A stretch of 64,000 nt of DNA from Salinibaculum litoreum. GTDB taxonomy: Archaea > Halobacteriota > Halobacteria > Halobacteriales > Haloarculaceae. A program made the position numbers and the translations under genes. Below the pieces are notes generated by a model that saw nothing but the letters and a program-made list of their open reading frames with translations, was not told the DNA's origin and ran no database searches. Positions within the stretch are counted from its first letter, which is position 1. Every line of letters starts with the position of its first letter. Positions 44,883 through 52,106 of this stretch are shown in pieces. The stretch lies in assembly GCA_009789175.1 (NCBI GenBank), contig CP046866.1, forward strand, positions 1,798,001 to 1,862,000, read 5' to 3'.

Positions 44883-47800
44883 CTATTTCGACCGCTTGAA
44901 CTCGAAGCGTGCCCCGCCATCGGTTCCCTCTGTCACCGAAGCCGTCCAGCCGTGTGCCTTCGCGATGTCGGCCACAATCGACAGCCCGAACCCGGTTCCC
45001 CCTTCGCTGGACGTGACGCCGTGGTTGAACACGTCATCTCGCCTCTCCTGAGGAATCCCGCTGCCGGTATCCTCAACGTAGAATCCGTCCTCTTCGTCTA
45101 GTCGGCCCACGGTAATCGTTACCCCAGCACTCCCGTGCTCGACTGCATTCCGGAAGAGATTCTCGAAGAGTTGGGTCAGCCGTCCTGCATCGCCAGTGAC
45201 TGTGGGGACTTCATCTGCAAGGGTGAGCGTTGCCTCTTTCGTGTCGACGTACCCCCACGCCTCCGTTGTAATACTCTCGAGATCGACGGCCTCGGCATTC
45301 TCGACCGTCGTCTCCCCACGTGCCAGCGTCAGGAGATCCCCGATGAGTCGTTCAATTCGGTCGTGTGCGGATTCTACCTTTTCAAAATGTTCCGCGTTGC
45401 CGGTCTCCTCTGCGATTTCGAGGAATCCCATCGCGACGGAAAGTGGGTTCCGAAGGTCGTGAGCAACGACGCTCGCGAACTGGTCGAGTCGCTCGTTCTG
45501 TCGATGTAGTTCTTCTTCTCTGCTCGCTCGTGCGAGTGCTGCCTCGACAGTCGCACCGAGAATCCGGAACAGATCGACATCCGTCTCAGAAAAGACCTGC
45601 GTGGAAACTGACCCCGTCGACATGAGCCCATACTCTCCCAGTGGGACGAGGATCTCACTTCGGATCTCTGTGTCCGGGTTGTGGGGTTGCCCCTCGGCCT
45701 GGACATCATCATATACCTGGGTTTCTCCGGACTCAAACGCGTCCCAAGCAAGACCGTCTCCAGGAGTGAACTGGGGAGAATCGCCAAACAAGTCCCGTGC
45801 TGCGGACGTTTCCGTAATTGGGACGAGCACGTTCTCTCGGTCGTCGTACTCCCAAATTCCGGTGACGTCGAGGTCGAGTATCTCCGCCGCGGCATCGACG
45901 GCGATCGTTCCGATCTCGTCGCTCGATTCAGCGCCGCTAAGCCGCTGTGCGGTGTCCTGAAGTGAACGGAGGCGAGCTTCCAACTGTTTTTGTTCGGTGA
46001 TGTCCTCCAAGACCGCGAGGATGCTCGTGGGGTCTCCGTCAGGGCCTGTAACCGGTGCGACCGACAAGAGAAGGTCCAGTTCGTCTCCGTCTTTTGTCTG
46101 CCGCCGTATCTCCTTTGCCCGAATCCGCTCGCCGCTCAGGGCACGCTGCTTGTGCGATGCAAACTCTTCTTGCTGCTCGTCCGGGACGATCGGATTGAAT
46201 TCCCCGAGCACTTCTTCGCGCGACCAGCCGAACATATTTTCGGCCTCGTCGTTCCAGCGGATGACGTTGCCATCAGTATCAATCTCCATGACGGTGAGTG
46301 GCGTGGCCCCGATGAGCGATTCCAGTCGCTGGTTCGTTGCCTCGAGTTCGCGCTCCCGCTCGACCTGCTCGGTGACGTTTCGAGCGATGCCCACAACTCG
46401 AACAGTCTCGCCATCGACGACGACCGGTGCGAGGCTGGTGTCCCAGAACTGAGCACCGTCACCGACGTCGAGCTCTTCGCGATACGAGACAGGGGCACCC
46501 TGATTGACGCAGCGAGTGTAATTCGCCTCGAGTTCAGCACCCTCCTGGTCGCCGAACACGTCTCGTGGCGTCTTGCCGCGAACTTCCTCGGTTGTGAGTC
46601 CGGTCTGTGACTCGTAGCCGGCACTGAGTCGGACAAACTCGAATGACGGGTCCTCACCAGTGGTATCGACATCGAGCAAGAAGATGGCGTCTCCGGATGT
46701 TTCGAGCAACGCCTCGTATTCCTCCGCGAGCTCTCGATGCTCGCGGCGTTCCGCTCTTCGCTCCGTAATGTCCTGAAACACGCCCCGGAGTGCTGAGTCA
46801 CCGCGCTGTGTGTCGTCGGCGTATTCTCCCCACGCCCGAACGTCACGCACCTCGCCGTCGGTTCGCACGGTTCGGAGGTCGAGGTCGTACGGTTCCCCGT
46901 CTTCGATTGCTTGGTCAACTGCTGCGGCAATCGTCTCTCTATCGTCGGGGTGATAGAACTCGAGTCCGTCGTCAAGAGTTGGCTCGTAATCGTCCTCGAC
47001 GCCGTGAATCTGGCGGACGCCGTCGGACCAGATGAGTTCCCCGCTCGATGGGACGTATTCCCAGATACCGATGTCTGCGATGTCCTGAACGCGGTCGAAG
47101 AGGAACTCCTGACGTTCGAGTTCGGCACGGTCACGACGACGCGAGAGTTCGGTACTCACGAGTTGCGCTACCAGCTCGACGAACGTCCGTTCGAGCGCTC
47201 CGAACGGCGCGACTCGCGTCGTCGGACTCGAGAAATTGACGGTTCCGTAACGCGTGTCATCGACGACGAGTGGCACGCCGATGTACGATTCTAACTCAAA
47301 GTCACGGTAGGCAGGATGCATCTCTTTTCCGTCGCTAACGGCGTCCGCGAACGAACAGACCGAATCCGTGCCGACGACTTCTGCACAGTACGTCGATTCG
47401 AGATCGAAGTGATCACCTGCCTCGATATCGGCTTCCGGTGCGTGAGCTGCTTCGACCGTGTAGTCGCTGTCCTGAATTCGCGAGACGATACCGATTTCTA
47501 GTCCGAGCGTCTGGCAACCGACTTCCAGTAGGTTCTGGAGGCGTGACCTGACCGAGACATCGCTTTCTGCCATGACGGCCTGGAGGTCCTGGAGTGCGTC
47601 CCGCTCTCGTTCCAATTGACGCTTCACCTCGCTTTGCTCGGTAACGTCTCGAGCGACAACGAGTACCTCCTTACCCTTTCGACTCTGGAACGGGGTCACC
47701 CGGACGTCGAACGTCCGCTCGCTGGTCCCGGCCACGACATCGAGTTGTAGGTCTACATCGTACAACCCGGTGGACCCACCATCGCTCTCAATCTCATCGA

Positions 47801-48788
47801 GCGTCGATTCGACTGCCTGGGAGAATCGCGTTGCATCGGAAGCGCTAACGCGGTCACCGACGACCGTTTCGAGCTGTTGTCCCGTGAGCTGGGCCGATTG
47901 ATCCCCTGCGAGCAACCGCTTTGCGGCCGTATTCGCGAACTCGACGTTCCCCGTCTCGTCGAGGACGAACACGACGTCGTGGATGGTCTCCAGAATCGCG
48001 TCACTGCGCTCTAGCCTCTGTTCCCGTTCTCGCTCGGCGGTGATTTCACGCGAAAAGACAGTCAGCCCGTCGTCATCTGGGAACGCTCGCACTTCGACCC
48101 AGTAGTCGAATGGCGCTCCCAGATGCTGTTCGAACGATACTGGTTCACCGGTCTCCATCGCCGTTCGATACTTGTCTTCGAGTTCCGTCCCGACAATCGA
48201 CGGGAACTCCTCCCAGATGGTTTCTCCGACGACCGCGTCCGGGTCACAATCGACTCGTTCGGCCATTTTTTCGTTCATATACTCGATGCGCCACTCGGTA
48301 TCGACAGCGTAAATCGCGTCAGTTGTGCGCTCGAGCGTTCGTCGGAAGCGTCGTTTCGTCTGCTCGGCCTCCGTGCGTTTGCGAGCAGCCTTCGTGAGCG
48401 TTCGAATGCGGGCCGCGAGCAGTGTGAAGTTATCACGCTCCGCCTGGACCGGGATGTAGTCCGAGACGCCGGCACGAGTCGCTTCGCTCGCGATTTCCTC
48501 ACTCCCCCCACCAGTAAAGAGGATTATCGGGATATCATCGTTCTGCTGGCGAATCGACTCCGTAAGCCCGATGCCATCGGAATCTTCGAGCGAGTACGCC
48601 GTTACGATACAGTCGATCCGGTCCGCAGCAAGATGGTGTAGTGCTTCGTCGATACCGTCAGCGGTCACACAGTCGATCTCGGTACTCGTTTGCTGGAGCT
48701 TGGTTTGAACCAAATTCGCGAATGCGGGGTCGGAGCTCACGTAGAGGACGCGGATTGGATCGTCCGGTTCGTCAGTAGTACCGAGCAC
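44883..48788 (-). CDS. Large multi-domain histidine kinase with degenerate receiver and PAS/GAF array
   Basis: About 1301 aa from the GTG at 48788 (LGTTDEPDDPIRVLYVSSDP). A TATA-like AAATATTTAAC about 28-38 bp upstream supports this over a TTG 30 codons earlier. Order, roughly: receiver-like domain (10-125), PAS (140-255), PAS (260-380), GAF (400-545), PAS (555-670), PAS (680-810), PAS (815-925), GAF (930-1085), HisKA (H-box DQFASVVAHDLRNPLSVAMG), HATPase (LFENLFRNAVEHG, DTGSGIP, GTGFGLSIV). The receiver reads DCIVTAYSLEDSDG: the expected phosphoacceptor Asp is Ala. No membrane helix, so probably cytosolic. Confidence 0.92.
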   Translation of the reverse strand: MLGTTDEPDDPIRVLYVSSDPAFANLVQTKLQQTSTEIDCVTADGIDEALHHLAADRIDCIVTAYSLEDSDGIGLTESIRQQNDDIPIILFTGGGSEEIASEATRAGVSDYIPVQAERDNFTLLAARIRTLTKAARKRTEAEQTKRRFRRTLERTTDAIYAVDTEWRIEYMNEKMAERVDCDPDAVVGETIWEEFPSIVGTELEDKYRTAMETGEPVSFEQHLGAPFDYWVEVRAFPDDDGLTVFSREITAEREREQRLERSDAILETIHDVVFVLDETGNVEFANTAAKRLLAGDQSAQLTGQQLETVVGDRVSASDATRFSQAVESTLDEIESDGGSTGLYDVDLQLDVVAGTSERTFDVRVTPFQSRKGKEVLVVARDVTEQSEVKRQLERERDALQDLQAVMAESDVSVRSRLQNLLEVGCQTLGLEIGIVSRIQDSDYTVEAAHAPEADIEAGDHFDLESTYCAEVVGTDSVCSFADAVSDGKEMHPAYRDFELESYIGVPLVVDDTRYGTVNFSSPTTRVAPFGALERTFVELVAQLVSTELSRRRDRAELERQEFLFDRVQDIADIGIWEYVPSSGELIWSDGVRQIHGVEDDYEPTLDDGLEFYHPDDRETIAAAVDQAIEDGEPYDLDLRTVRTDGEVRDVRAWGEYADDTQRGDSALRGVFQDITERRAERREHRELAEEYEALLETSGDAIFLLDVDTTGEDPSFEFVRLSAGYESQTGLTTEEVRGKTPRDVFGDQEGAELEANYTRCVNQGAPVSYREELDVGDGAQFWDTSLAPVVVDGETVRVVGIARNVTEQVERERELEATNQRLESLIGATPLTVMEIDTDGNVIRWNDEAENMFGWSREEVLGEFNPIVPDEQQEEFASHKQRALSGERIRAKEIRRQTKDGDELDLLLSVAPVTGPDGDPTSILAVLEDITEQKQLEARLRSLQDTAQRLSGAESSDEIGTIAVDAAAEILDLDVTGIWEYDDRENVLVPITETSAARDLFGDSPQFTPGDGLAWDAFESGETQVYDDVQAEGQPHNPDTEIRSEILVPLGEYGLMSTGSVSTQVFSETDVDLFRILGATVEAALARASREEELHRQNERLDQFASVVAHDLRNPLSVAMGFLEIAEETGNAEHFEKVESAHDRIERLIGDLLTLARGETTVENAEAVDLESITTEAWGYVDTKEATLTLADEVPTVTGDAGRLTQLFENLFRNAVEHGSAGVTITVGRLDEEDGFYVEDTGSGIPQERRDDVFNHGVTSSEGGTGFGLSIVADIAKAHGWTASVTEGTDGGARFEFKRSK

Positions 48789-48937
48789 AGTTACAGAGAT
48801 TTGACTGTCTAACTGGTTAAATATTTCTTGCGAGACATCCCGTGGGCTATCGAAGTCGCTGACGAGTGAAAAGCGCAATAATCGAGGAATTGTGGTATGT
48901 CGGTCAATATAAGGAGAGGGGCGGATACACTACTAGC
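48789..48937. promoter_or_regulatory. Divergent promoter region between the kinase and the response regulator
   Basis: About 150 bp with two A/T-rich blocks: GGTTAAATATTT near 48816-48827 (minus-strand TATA for the kinase) and TCAATATAAGG near 48904-48914 (plus-strand TATA for the regulator). Each lies about 25-30 bp from the proposed start, so both genes appear leaderless and can be controlled together. Confidence 0.6.
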
Positions 48938-49327
48938 ATGCCTGCGGAAATTCTGGCTGCCGACGACGACGAAAACATCAGGGAGATGATCGATGTTAGT
49001 CTTGGTGGGGAGTTCGACGTAGAGACGGTAAAAGATGGTCGGGAGGCATGGGAGTACTTAGAAGAAGCACCGGGTTCACTACCGAAAGCAGTCATTCTCG
49101 ACGTCATGATGCCAGAGATGGACGGGTTTTCGGTTCTGGACCATATCCGAGAGAACGACGGGATGCAGGACATTCCAATTATTATGCTGACATCTCGGAG
49201 TCGAGAGGAAGACATCGTTCGAGCACTTGAGGCGGGCGCGGACGATTTCCTGGCGAAGCCATTCAATAAATCAGAACTGTACGGACGTGTACAGCAAACT
49301 CTCCAGCACGAAACCGTACAGAATTGA
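48938..49327 (+). CDS. Single-domain response regulator
   Basis: 129-aa receiver domain. The acidic pocket DDDENIREM, phosphoacceptor Asp in VILDVMMPEMDGFSVLDHI, Thr/Ser in IIMLTSRSREED and Lys in DDFLAKPFNKSEL are all present, so it should be phosphorylatable. There is no output domain, which is typical of archaeal CheY-like regulators. The ATG at 48938 fits the TATA box 25-30 bp upstream. It is divergent from the large kinase and 35 bp upstream of the PgsC-like gene. Confidence 0.93.
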   Translation: MPAEILAADDDENIREMIDVSLGGEFDVETVKDGREAWEYLEEAPGSLPKAVILDVMMPEMDGFSVLDHIRENDGMQDIPIIMLTSRSREEDIVRALEAGADDFLAKPFNKSELYGRVQQTLQHETVQN

Positions 49328-49362
49328 AACAGTAAAGGTGCATAAGCCGATAAAGATTCATA

Positions 49363-50526
49363 ATGTGGGTAGCCACACTAGTCGCTGTTATCGGATTACT
49401 TGCCGTAGCGGTGACTACGCAGTTCACTGGCTACCGTCTCGGTGGAACGATCACCGTTCCGGTACTCGCGGTGTACACGCTCAAGAACGCCCTGATGCTA
49501 CCAGTGTTCGTCCTCAGTACTATCGCAGCGTACATCGGTCTCTGGTATCTCCGACAGCGAACCCTGGTTTACGGTCGAGACGAACTCCTCGCCGCATTCG
49601 TGATTGGAACGTCAGTCCCGTTGGTGACGCTTCTTGGGTTGATTCAGGTCGGGTTCGACCCAGACCTTATTGTGTTGATTGGCAGTATTCTCCCCGGGTT
49701 GGCGGCCTACAATTTCCACAGCATCAAGCCGGAGTTTCGGCGGAACGATGTACTGGCGACTGTCGGCTTGTTCACGGCACTGTTCGTCCTCGGTTTGGTA
49801 CTGGTCTCTCCCGGAATCGCGGCCCGATTCGGGACACTGACGCCACCGGTATTATTTGCTGAAACCGCCGACATTGCGGTGTACAACAATGCGGTCGTTG
49901 ATGTCACAACGGGAGCGGTCGTCATTTCGAGGGAAGTCGTGGCAGGTCTCTTTATTTTTGGTCTGATCATATCCGAACGCATCAGGTCCCGCTTCGGCGT
50001 CCGGGTCGGCATCATCACGGCAATCCTGTTGGCAGTCTACGCCCTCATGAACTACTGGCTTATCGTCATGTATCTGATTCTGTTCGTCATCGTGTTTGGC
50101 CTGGTTCAGGCACTACACTACGCGACGCTGCGGTACGGGAGAGTGCTGCTTGGAACCACCACCGCCTTTGGACTGCTCGTGGCAGTTCCACTGACCCTCT
50201 CGCTTCCGATAGATCGGGGACTGTCTGCGTTTTTCGTTGCCTTCCTCGCTGGCATCACGGCGTATAATACTCACGTGACAAGTTCATTTGATCGGCGGCT
50301 GGTACTCCCCCTGCAGGCCGTCGTGTTCGTTCCAGCGTTGCTCGTCGCGCGACTGTTCGCAACGCCGGAACCGAAGGGTATCCCACAGGAACTCACGCTC
50401 CCAGTGATCGTGATCGGCGTCTTCGTAGTGTTGGTTGGCCTGGGGATCGGGCGCTGGTATGCAGTTGACAAACCTGACGAGTCCGAGGTTCTGTCGGCAT
50501 CCGTTCTTTCCGGGGGAGACTCATGA
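49363..50526 (+). CDS. PgsC/CapC-like membrane protein, internally duplicated
   Basis: 387 aa with about 10-12 hydrophobic segments. Bacterial PgsC is about 150 aa and has a YGR motif followed by a GxIxPGLxAN loop. Here the first half has LVYGRDELLAAFVIGTSVPL and SILPGLAAYNFHSIKPEFRR, and the second half repeats the pattern as LRYGRVLLGTTTAFGLLVAV and FLAGITAYNTHVTSSFDRR. So two PgsC-like units are fused. In Bacillus PgsC works with PgsB in the membrane poly-gamma-glutamate synthase. The stop overlaps the PgsB-like gene by 4 bp (ATGA). Equivalence of function is inference. Confidence 0.8.
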   Translation: MWVATLVAVIGLLAVAVTTQFTGYRLGGTITVPVLAVYTLKNALMLPVFVLSTIAAYIGLWYLRQRTLVYGRDELLAAFVIGTSVPLVTLLGLIQVGFDPDLIVLIGSILPGLAAYNFHSIKPEFRRNDVLATVGLFTALFVLGLVLVSPGIAARFGTLTPPVLFAETADIAVYNNAVVDVTTGAVVISREVVAGLFIFGLIISERIRSRFGVRVGIITAILLAVYALMNYWLIVMYLILFVIVFGLVQALHYATLRYGRVLLGTTTAFGLLVAVPLTLSLPIDRGLSAFFVAFLAGITAYNTHVTSSFDRRLVLPLQAVVFVPALLVARLFATPEPKGIPQELTLPVIVIGVFVVLVGLGIGRWYAVDKPDESEVLSASVLSGGDS

Positions 50527-52106
50527 GCACGACTGCATACGAGATATACGGTCGAGGGTTCGGCTGGGCGTGGCGACTTCGCATGCAGGAACGCGTGGTA
50601 GCCACCGGGGGCCATCACTACGATACATCACGAGAGGCCCGACAGGCTGTCGACCAAGTTCGAGGGGCAGTTGCTGCACTCACGGGAGATAAAGAGGCGT
50701 TCGAAAGCGAGGATATCAGCGACCCGCAAACGATCGTCAGAGAAGACCCGACACCTTCCGGCGAGCTTCCAGATGACCGGAACAATTGGGTGTGGCAACT
50801 ACAGACACCCGAGCGTACCCTCGCCAACAGCGCAGACCGGTTCCCTACCGAGAGCGATGCCAGGAATGCGTTGGAGCGGTTTCTAGAGCGTGCTACGGGT
50901 GCTCTCCCAATGTTCATGGTCGGTGCCGAATACGAGTGGCGGGACGGACCACGGTCTATCGAGGTCGGGAAGCCGAGCCTGACCGGCATTATTAAAGAAT
51001 TAACACGAGGGTCCCGCCACCGCAAGGCACTCCGACGACTGGACACTCGCATCGCCGTGGCGGGGAGCCGTGGCAAGACATCGACGACCCGGCGCCTCGA
51101 CGACGTGTTCAACCGCCGGGGCTACGATACGCTGACGAAGATCACCGGGAACCATCCGACACTCATCCACAACGGCGAGGTTCACCCTATCGAACGCCGT
51201 GGCCCTCGGACAACGCTGTACGAGAACATCAGCGTGATCGGGGAATTCGCCCCGGAGCTTGATGCCTATGCCGCCGAGGATATCGGCATCTTCGAAAACC
51301 AGGGTATCACCGAGTACACGACACGGTTGATCAATCAGAAACTGATCAATCCGGACATCGTTGTCCTGACCAACGTCCGTCAGGACCACAACGACACACT
51401 TGGCAAGACCCGAACCAATATCGCCCGATCGTTCGCACGGTCAGTCTCCTCCGGGACACACGTCATCAGTGGAGAACAACACCCTGTTCTCCACGAGTAC
51501 ATGCAAGAGGAGATCGAACGACGTGGCGCTACTATCGAACAGGTCGAGATTCCGGACCGGCACGAAGGGATGATTGGGGCAGAGACTGCGCACGCAATCG
51601 ACGCTGTCCTGTCCTTTCTCGGCGAATCGCCGCTCCCCGATGGTGAACTCGAAGCGTTTTTGAACGCGATCCAGCCAGAGTGGACCCGACTTCCCAACGG
51701 CCGTGTGTTCAACGCAGCACAGGTGAACGATGTGGAGAGTACGGAGATGGTCCGTCGGGTACTCGTTGCGGAAGATGAACAGATACTGCCGTTCGTCTAT
51801 CTCCGCCGGGACCGCCGCGGTCGAACTGCCTCGTTCGCAGAGTACGTTGACCTCCTCTACGACCAAGGACACATCGAGAGAGCCCACGTTGGTGGGGCAA
51901 ACACACGTGCGTTTGCTGAGAATACTGACCTCCCGGTGACCCAACACGACGATGACACCGACGCCGACACTGTGCTGACCGATCTTCTTGCAGGTACAGA
52001 GCCTGTCGTCATCATGGGGAATACCGTAGATGAGTTTATGCGTGAGTTCGAGCAGGCAATAGGCACTCAAGAAAAAGAGATGAACGAGTCAATAACAGAC
52101 AATTAG
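50523..52106 (+). CDS. PgsB/CapB-like Mur-ligase with N-terminal YegP/DUF1508-like repeats
   Basis: 527 aa. Residues 6-49 (YEIYGRGFGWAWRLRMQERV) and about 88-125 (NWVWQLQTPERTLANSADRF) are two YegP/DUF1508-type repeats not found in Bacillus PgsB. From residue 176 it is a Mur-ligase-type amide ligase: P-loop AVAGSRGKTSTTRR at 178-190, substrate loop LTKITGNHPTLI, and NVRQDHNDTLGKTR, equivalent to the NVLEDHMDVMG segment of PgsB. The end has VIMGNTVDEFMREFEQAIG. It is expected to activate and join gamma-glutamyl or a similar carboxylate. Overlaps the PgsC-like gene by 4 bp; no PgsA is next to it. Confidence 0.85.
   Translation: MSTTAYEIYGRGFGWAWRLRMQERVVATGGHHYDTSREARQAVDQVRGAVAALTGDKEAFESEDISDPQTIVREDPTPSGELPDDRNNWVWQLQTPERTLANSADRFPTESDARNALERFLERATGALPMFMVGAEYEWRDGPRSIEVGKPSLTGIIKELTRGSRHRKALRRLDTRIAVAGSRGKTSTTRRLDDVFNRRGYDTLTKITGNHPTLIHNGEVHPIERRGPRTTLYENISVIGEFAPELDAYAAEDIGIFENQGITEYTTRLINQKLINPDIVVLTNVRQDHNDTLGKTRTNIARSFARSVSSGTHVISGEQHPVLHEYMQEEIERRGATIEQVEIPDRHEGMIGAETAHAIDAVLSFLGESPLPDGELEAFLNAIQPEWTRLPNGRVFNAAQVNDVESTEMVRRVLVAEDEQILPFVYLRRDRRGRTASFAEYVDLLYDQGHIERAHVGGANTRAFAENTDLPVTQHDDDTDADTVLTDLLAGTEPVVIMGNTVDEFMREFEQAIGTQEKEMNESITDN

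Follow-up and report, generated by a model that had tools for sequence, protein, structure and literature searches.

The locus lies in a 64,000-nucleotide stretch of the Salinibaculum litoreum genome (the window). It encodes a sensor kinase, a receiver-only response regulator, and a CapC-CapB pair, arranged as follows.

44883-48878, minus strand: sensor histidine kinase (Pfam), given by its ORF bounds; the start may be at 48788.
48938-49327, plus strand: receiver-only response regulator of 129 aa, separated from the downstream capC by 35 bp (Response_reg, 1.1e-27).
49361-49362, no strand: putative recombination joint, 2 bp before the capC ATG, placed from blastn matches and a switch in identity.
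49363-50526, plus strand: capC, encoding an internally duplicated polytopic CapC/PgsC membrane protein of 387 aa (PF14102 twice, homologous halves, helical membrane model).
50523-52106, plus strand: yegP2-capB, encoding a CapB/PgsB-type Mur ligase of 527 aa with two N-terminal YegP/DUF1508-type repeats.
50535-50708, plus strand: YegP-type repeat 1 of CapB (about residues 5-62).
50772-50930, plus strand: YegP-type repeat 2 of CapB (about residues 84-136).
51057-51440, plus strand: central Mur ligase domain of CapB (PF08245; about residues 179-306), with the GSRGKTS P-loop, ENQGITEYT and NVRQDH.

The two synthase genes overlap by 4 bp (ATGA), exactly at the coordinates given in an initial annotation of this DNA, and the overlap is kept in most of the relatives compared. 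CapB is encoded together with a CapC partner in the window, and this pairing was constant among the relatives compared.

We found that the ligase is of the CapB type. The protein (P0002) matches Mur_ligase_M (PF08245) with 31.5 bits (cut-off 24). Its best NCBIfam model is PgsB (TIGR04012, E=1.9e-25), with FolC next and only weak matches to MurC, MurF and pseudomurein ligase. The PgsB score of 89.4 bits is under the equivalog cut-off of 222.7, and we therefore file the protein as a CapB-type haloarchaeal variant and not as a PgsB equivalog. TIGR04012 also matches all aligned members of the CapB family (40/40 at E<=0.001; best E=3.7e-32). Columns G181, R183, G184, K185, E258, N259, Q260, N284, R286, D288 and H289 are invariant in the family alignment, and the ENQGITEYT motif is common to its haloarchaeal members. 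The initial annotation had called the protein a Mur ligase, and the PF08245 match, the invariant GxRGK P-loop and PgsB as the best named relative bear this out. In a structural search with the CapB model (pLDDT 81.8), the top matches were FolC enzymes (E=5.6e-12), consistent with a report that CapB is nearest to FPGS (PMC11915815). The closest fold is thus that of FolC, a branch related to CapB, rather than that of some other Mur family.

The membrane partner is internally duplicated, as had been claimed. The first half of CapC (P0001) matches PF14102 at 81.8-83.3 bits, above the cut-off of 27, and the second half at 22.3 bits, below it; compared as profiles, the halves match one another with E=6.6e-23. 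The predicted structure is helical and of membrane type (pLDDT 84.5), and a search of the PDB for fold relatives gave no significant match. The initial annotation had stressed the duplication as unusual, but it is the haloarchaeal norm. Of 392 sampled genomes of Halobacteria, 80 have CapC, nearly always encoded by a single ORF (about 390-420 aa) that gives two matches; the window locus is thus not alone in having the duplication. Taken together, the family matches place the CapB and CapC proteins in the poly-gamma-glutamate synthase family.

Several lines of evidence suggest that the N-terminal repeats of CapB are of the YegP/DUF1508/UPF0339 type. From P0002 alone the match is weak (PF07411, E=0.12; HVO_2922 family, E=9.4e-5, both below the Pfam/NCBIfam cut-offs). 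However, the two repeats align to each other (E=2.1e-10), CapB homologues match DUF1508 at the same position (E=1.8e-4 to 2.6e-4), and a search with the CapB family profile picks out 6q2z, a UPF0339 protein of known structure, across positions 2-54 (E=0.005). The N-terminus of the CapB model likewise contains two similar units, each of strands followed by a helix. The earlier proposal of two YegP repeats is supported by this family evidence.

A search with whole CapB separates full-length (fused) relatives from those that match in the body only (unfused). On a tree of 71 ligase bodies, 37 CapB proteins carried the fusion and 34 did not, a distribution that needs two changes; the simplest account is a gain, with a loss in a group of 11 members. 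The tree was a quick, midpoint-rooted one with some long branches, and we infer the direction of change from that root. One CapB (L057) has an additional DUF1508 near its C-terminus (residues 615-662). Stretches resembling the CapB YegP region were also found in haloarchaeal proteins of about 490-970 aa (L101-L108), several with N-terminal membrane segments. The idea that the repeats substitute for an N-terminal membrane anchor was not supported, because unfused haloarchaeal CapB also lacks a strongly hydrophobic N-terminus.

We found no CapA encoded near the capC-capB pair of the window (tblastn) and no CapA remnant downstream of its capB. The only CapA-like gene in this genome is short and distant, on contig 3, and neither PF05908 (gamma-PGA hydrolase) nor PF01019 (CapD-type transpeptidase) was detected in the genome. 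The absence of CapA noted in the initial annotation is therefore real for this locus, and it extends to most of the subclade, which we define as CapB proteins with about 60% or more identity to that of the window. It is not a property of the system. A cognate long CapA, at least 66% identical, was found in 6 of the 23 subclade genomes searched, one of them the query itself, which rules out a missing CapA as a defining trait. The gene adjoins capC-capB in G076 and G120 and lies elsewhere in G077, G154, G266 and G275. At locus L047, capA sits between the regulator and capC. In the near-complete genomes G181, G195, G236, G294, G342 and G370 there was no match to the long CapA, and none of these was among the PF09587-positive genomes in a class-wide search. 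A normal capA thus occurs in some relatives and not in all of them. In other CapB clades, CapA (PF09587) or a poly-gamma-glutamate hydrolase (PF05908) lies beside capB. These distributions indicate that CapA is facultative in haloarchaeal CapB-CapC systems. A pair without CapA is no puzzle, since PgsBC of B. subtilis produced polymer even in the absence of PgsA, with 95% L-PGA (D/L ratio 5/95; PMC6029982).

Two further observations concern these neighbouring genes. The capA adjoining capC-capB in G076 (L046:11137-13368) holds an in-frame TGA, so CapA may be decaying in that genome. In one unfused CapB clade (L168-L174), the hydrolase gene is directly downstream of capB in 7/7 loci, most of which share a further set of surrounding genes (u17, u6, u9, u16 and u15).

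The most informative part of the locus is the kinase-regulator pair, which was absent from the initial annotation. The kinase gene is divergent from the capC-capB operon and encodes a receiver domain, several PAS domains, two GAF domains, HisKA and HATPase_c (Pfam). Over the aligned stretch, the protein is 79-90% identical to the kinase in the same place in seven relatives. The regulators retain the acidic pair, the phospho-acceptor Asp, the Thr/Ser and the Lys in alignment. The kinase, with HisKA and HATPase_c, and the receiver, with its phospho-acceptor residues, together have the features of a two-component system.

We found that the regulator is fixed upstream of capC throughout the subclade. 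Wherever a subclade locus has an intact capC-capB pair and upstream DNA that can be read, the regulator is there (19/19; at L141 and L147 it was located by tblastn). Two other loci are incomplete, L048 beginning near a contig edge and L052 being a fragment without capC. At L140, capB is in two open-frame pieces and the gene order is still kept. In contrast, an intact regulator was found near capC in 0/48 loci outside the subclade. Matches less than 3 kb from capC occurred at two of these, namely a fragment of 30 residues at L039 and a weak match (27-31%) at L041. Kinase, regulator, capC and capB are the only genes conserved across subclade neighbourhoods; the kinases vary in length, domain content and orientation. 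The linkage spans several families of Halobacteria. Named carriers are, among others, Halovenus rubra, Halorubrum sp. Hd13 and a plasmid of Halorientalis marina.

The fragment at L039 (L039:9623-9712) is 90% identical to the receiver of the window. It sits close to a kinase of 1301 aa, downstream of a CapB that is divergent and unfused, and may be what is left of this sensor pair in a different CapB clade. At L159, within the subclade, the receiver gene is split into two distant pieces and capB is shortened, as after an insertion.

The kinase-regulator and synthase modules of the window have different closest relatives. Compared with L051, the window is 90% identical in the kinase and 91% in the regulator, but 63% in CapC and 68% in CapB; L142 shows the same pattern (about 90% and 62-68% for the two modules across L051 and L142). 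Compared with L046, the values are reversed: 42% for the kinase, 53% for the regulator, 85% for CapC and 92% for CapB (with L049 included, 42-54% and 84-92%). The kinase and regulator of the window are thus those of one sub-lineage and its synthase that of a second, and the modules behave as exchangeable. The blastn matches of six relatives of the L046-type synthase group all start at 49361, and the simplest reading is that a recombination joint lies between regulator and synthase. A regulator that is both fixed and exchangeable is the strongest new point of the locus. Gene order and module exchange are evidence of association and not of regulation.

We suggest that the locus probably makes and exports a polymer of the poly-gamma-L-glutamate type, with a phosphorelay as the switch. 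CapB would be an ATP-dependent ligase on the cytosolic side and CapC its duplicated membrane partner; together they would polymerise glutamate through gamma-amide bonds and move the chain across the membrane. The FolC-like CapB model and the CapA and hydrolase neighbours in other clades point to a gamma-linked glutamate polymer. Weighing against it are the PgsB score of CapB, far below the equivalog cut-off, and the lack of any detected gamma-PGA hydrolase or CapD-type transpeptidase family in this genome. This product would probably be all-L, with CapA optional; the haloarchaeon Natrialba aegyptiaca produces all-L PGA (PMC3815933). The initial annotation had proposed a variant amide-ligase system for a gamma-linked polymer, a peptide tag or a lipid modification. 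Our results bear out a variant CapB-CapC system in which the YegP fusion is consistent, but give no positive evidence for a peptide tag or lipid modification, and homology and neighbours favour the polymer. A reading of the locus as a defence system was rejected, as PADLOC gave no match.

Signals sensed by the PAS/GAF kinase would pass to the receiver-only regulator and from there to the synthase, in a dedicated two-component phosphorelay. Since the regulator has no DNA-binding domain, it most likely works through protein contact, its partner being either the synthase or an unlinked regulator. It is quite possible that the pair simply switches expression of the genes beside it, with the regulator controlling transcription through an unlinked DNA-binding partner. 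The regulator-capC gap of 34-142 bp in most loci fits a single transcript, and archaeal response regulator and HTH genes frequently adjoin (PMC5847659). However, subclade neighbourhoods conserve nothing beyond the four genes, and archaeal response regulators are thought to be mostly protein-protein interactors (PMC5847659). We propose more tentatively that the regulator might bind the synthase and switch it directly, the YegP domains forming part of the surface through which it is controlled, with no transcription step.

Other products and other relationships between the modules fare less well. Glutaminylglycan is poly-gamma-L-glutamate carrying oligosaccharides. Instead of free poly-gamma-glutamate, CapB-CapC could make the peptide backbone of such a decorated polymer, or build a short gamma-glutamyl chain onto some other acceptor; a role for haloarchaeal CapB in glutaminylglycan was proposed in a 2025 study (PMC11915815). 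The distance of CapB from the PgsB equivalog model and the shared haloarchaeal ENQGITEYT motif would fit this. We consider it unlikely: no glycosyltransferase cluster was recognised in the subclade neighbour lists, in which most neighbours are unannotated, and poly-gamma-glutamate hydrolases adjoin capB in some relatives.

The sensor pair might instead be a functionally unconnected passenger, carried along with the synthase by a mobile island. Most of the island is low in GC (52-60%, compared with 65-69% in flanking DNA). In the sister species G142, the flanking genes are retained with other genes between them, and the island is absent at that site. Transposase-type genes adjoin some of the loci. 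Yet the regulator stays before capC although the kinase has several sequence types and two orientations, the exchanged module is again kinase plus regulator, and the linkage crosses families, all of which make a passenger quite improbable. That the ligase belongs to another Mur family, unconnected to gamma-glutamyl polymers, is highly improbable: the weak MurC, MurF and pseudomurein ligase matches stand against PgsB and FolC as best-scoring models, FolC structures ranking first, and the constant CapC pairing.

The locus offers a receiver-only regulator fixed beside an obvious likely target across several haloarchaeal families. The natural swap of kinase and regulator on a closely related synthase provides ready-made test constructs. 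An optional CapA in natural haloarchaeal systems is consistent with the L-rich polymer of Bacillus PgsBC without PgsA (PMC6029982). The widespread YegP fusion in haloarchaea, the subclade-wide receiver-only regulator with a PAS/GAF kinase, and the module exchange look new. Among the papers that could be searched, we found no report of a YegP-CapB fusion or of a sensor linkage, which is not proof that none exists.

The system resembles Bacillus PgsBCA/CapBCA in combining a CapC-family membrane partner with a FolC-like ATP-dependent ligase. It differs in its gene order (C then B), duplicated CapC, lack of a CapA at the locus and attached sensor pair, and its CapB starts with YegP repeats and lacks a hydrophobic N-terminal segment. 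CapBCA has been reported in Haloquadratum walsbyi (PMC1544339), so the window system is a variant and not a new kind. CapB and CapC of Haloquadratum walsbyi and other haloarchaea come from the same class of organisms, and the relatives compared share the duplicated CapC and the CapB motifs. The YegP fusion and a linked two-component pair are not described in the accessible part of the Haloquadratum walsbyi report (PMC1544339), and other haloarchaeal CapB clades, unlike the window, have an adjoining CapA or gamma-PGA hydrolase. FolC, the best structural match of the CapB model, shares the gamma-glutamyl ligase chemistry; unlike CapB, it is cytosolic, adds a short chain onto folate and has no CapC partner. 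HVO_2922/UPF0339 proteins and haloarchaeal membrane proteins with YegP-like repeats have the type of repeat that the CapB N-terminus appears to carry, but in them it stands alone or is fused to other domains and not to a ligase. Finally, about 40% of archaeal response regulators are stand-alone receivers, whose neighbourhoods mostly give no clue to a target (PMC5847659). Like the regulator of the window, these CheY-like proteins have a single REC domain with conserved phosphorylation residues (PMC5847659). Most of them are without a conserved neighbourhood (PMC5847659), whereas that of the window is fixed to a synthase operon.
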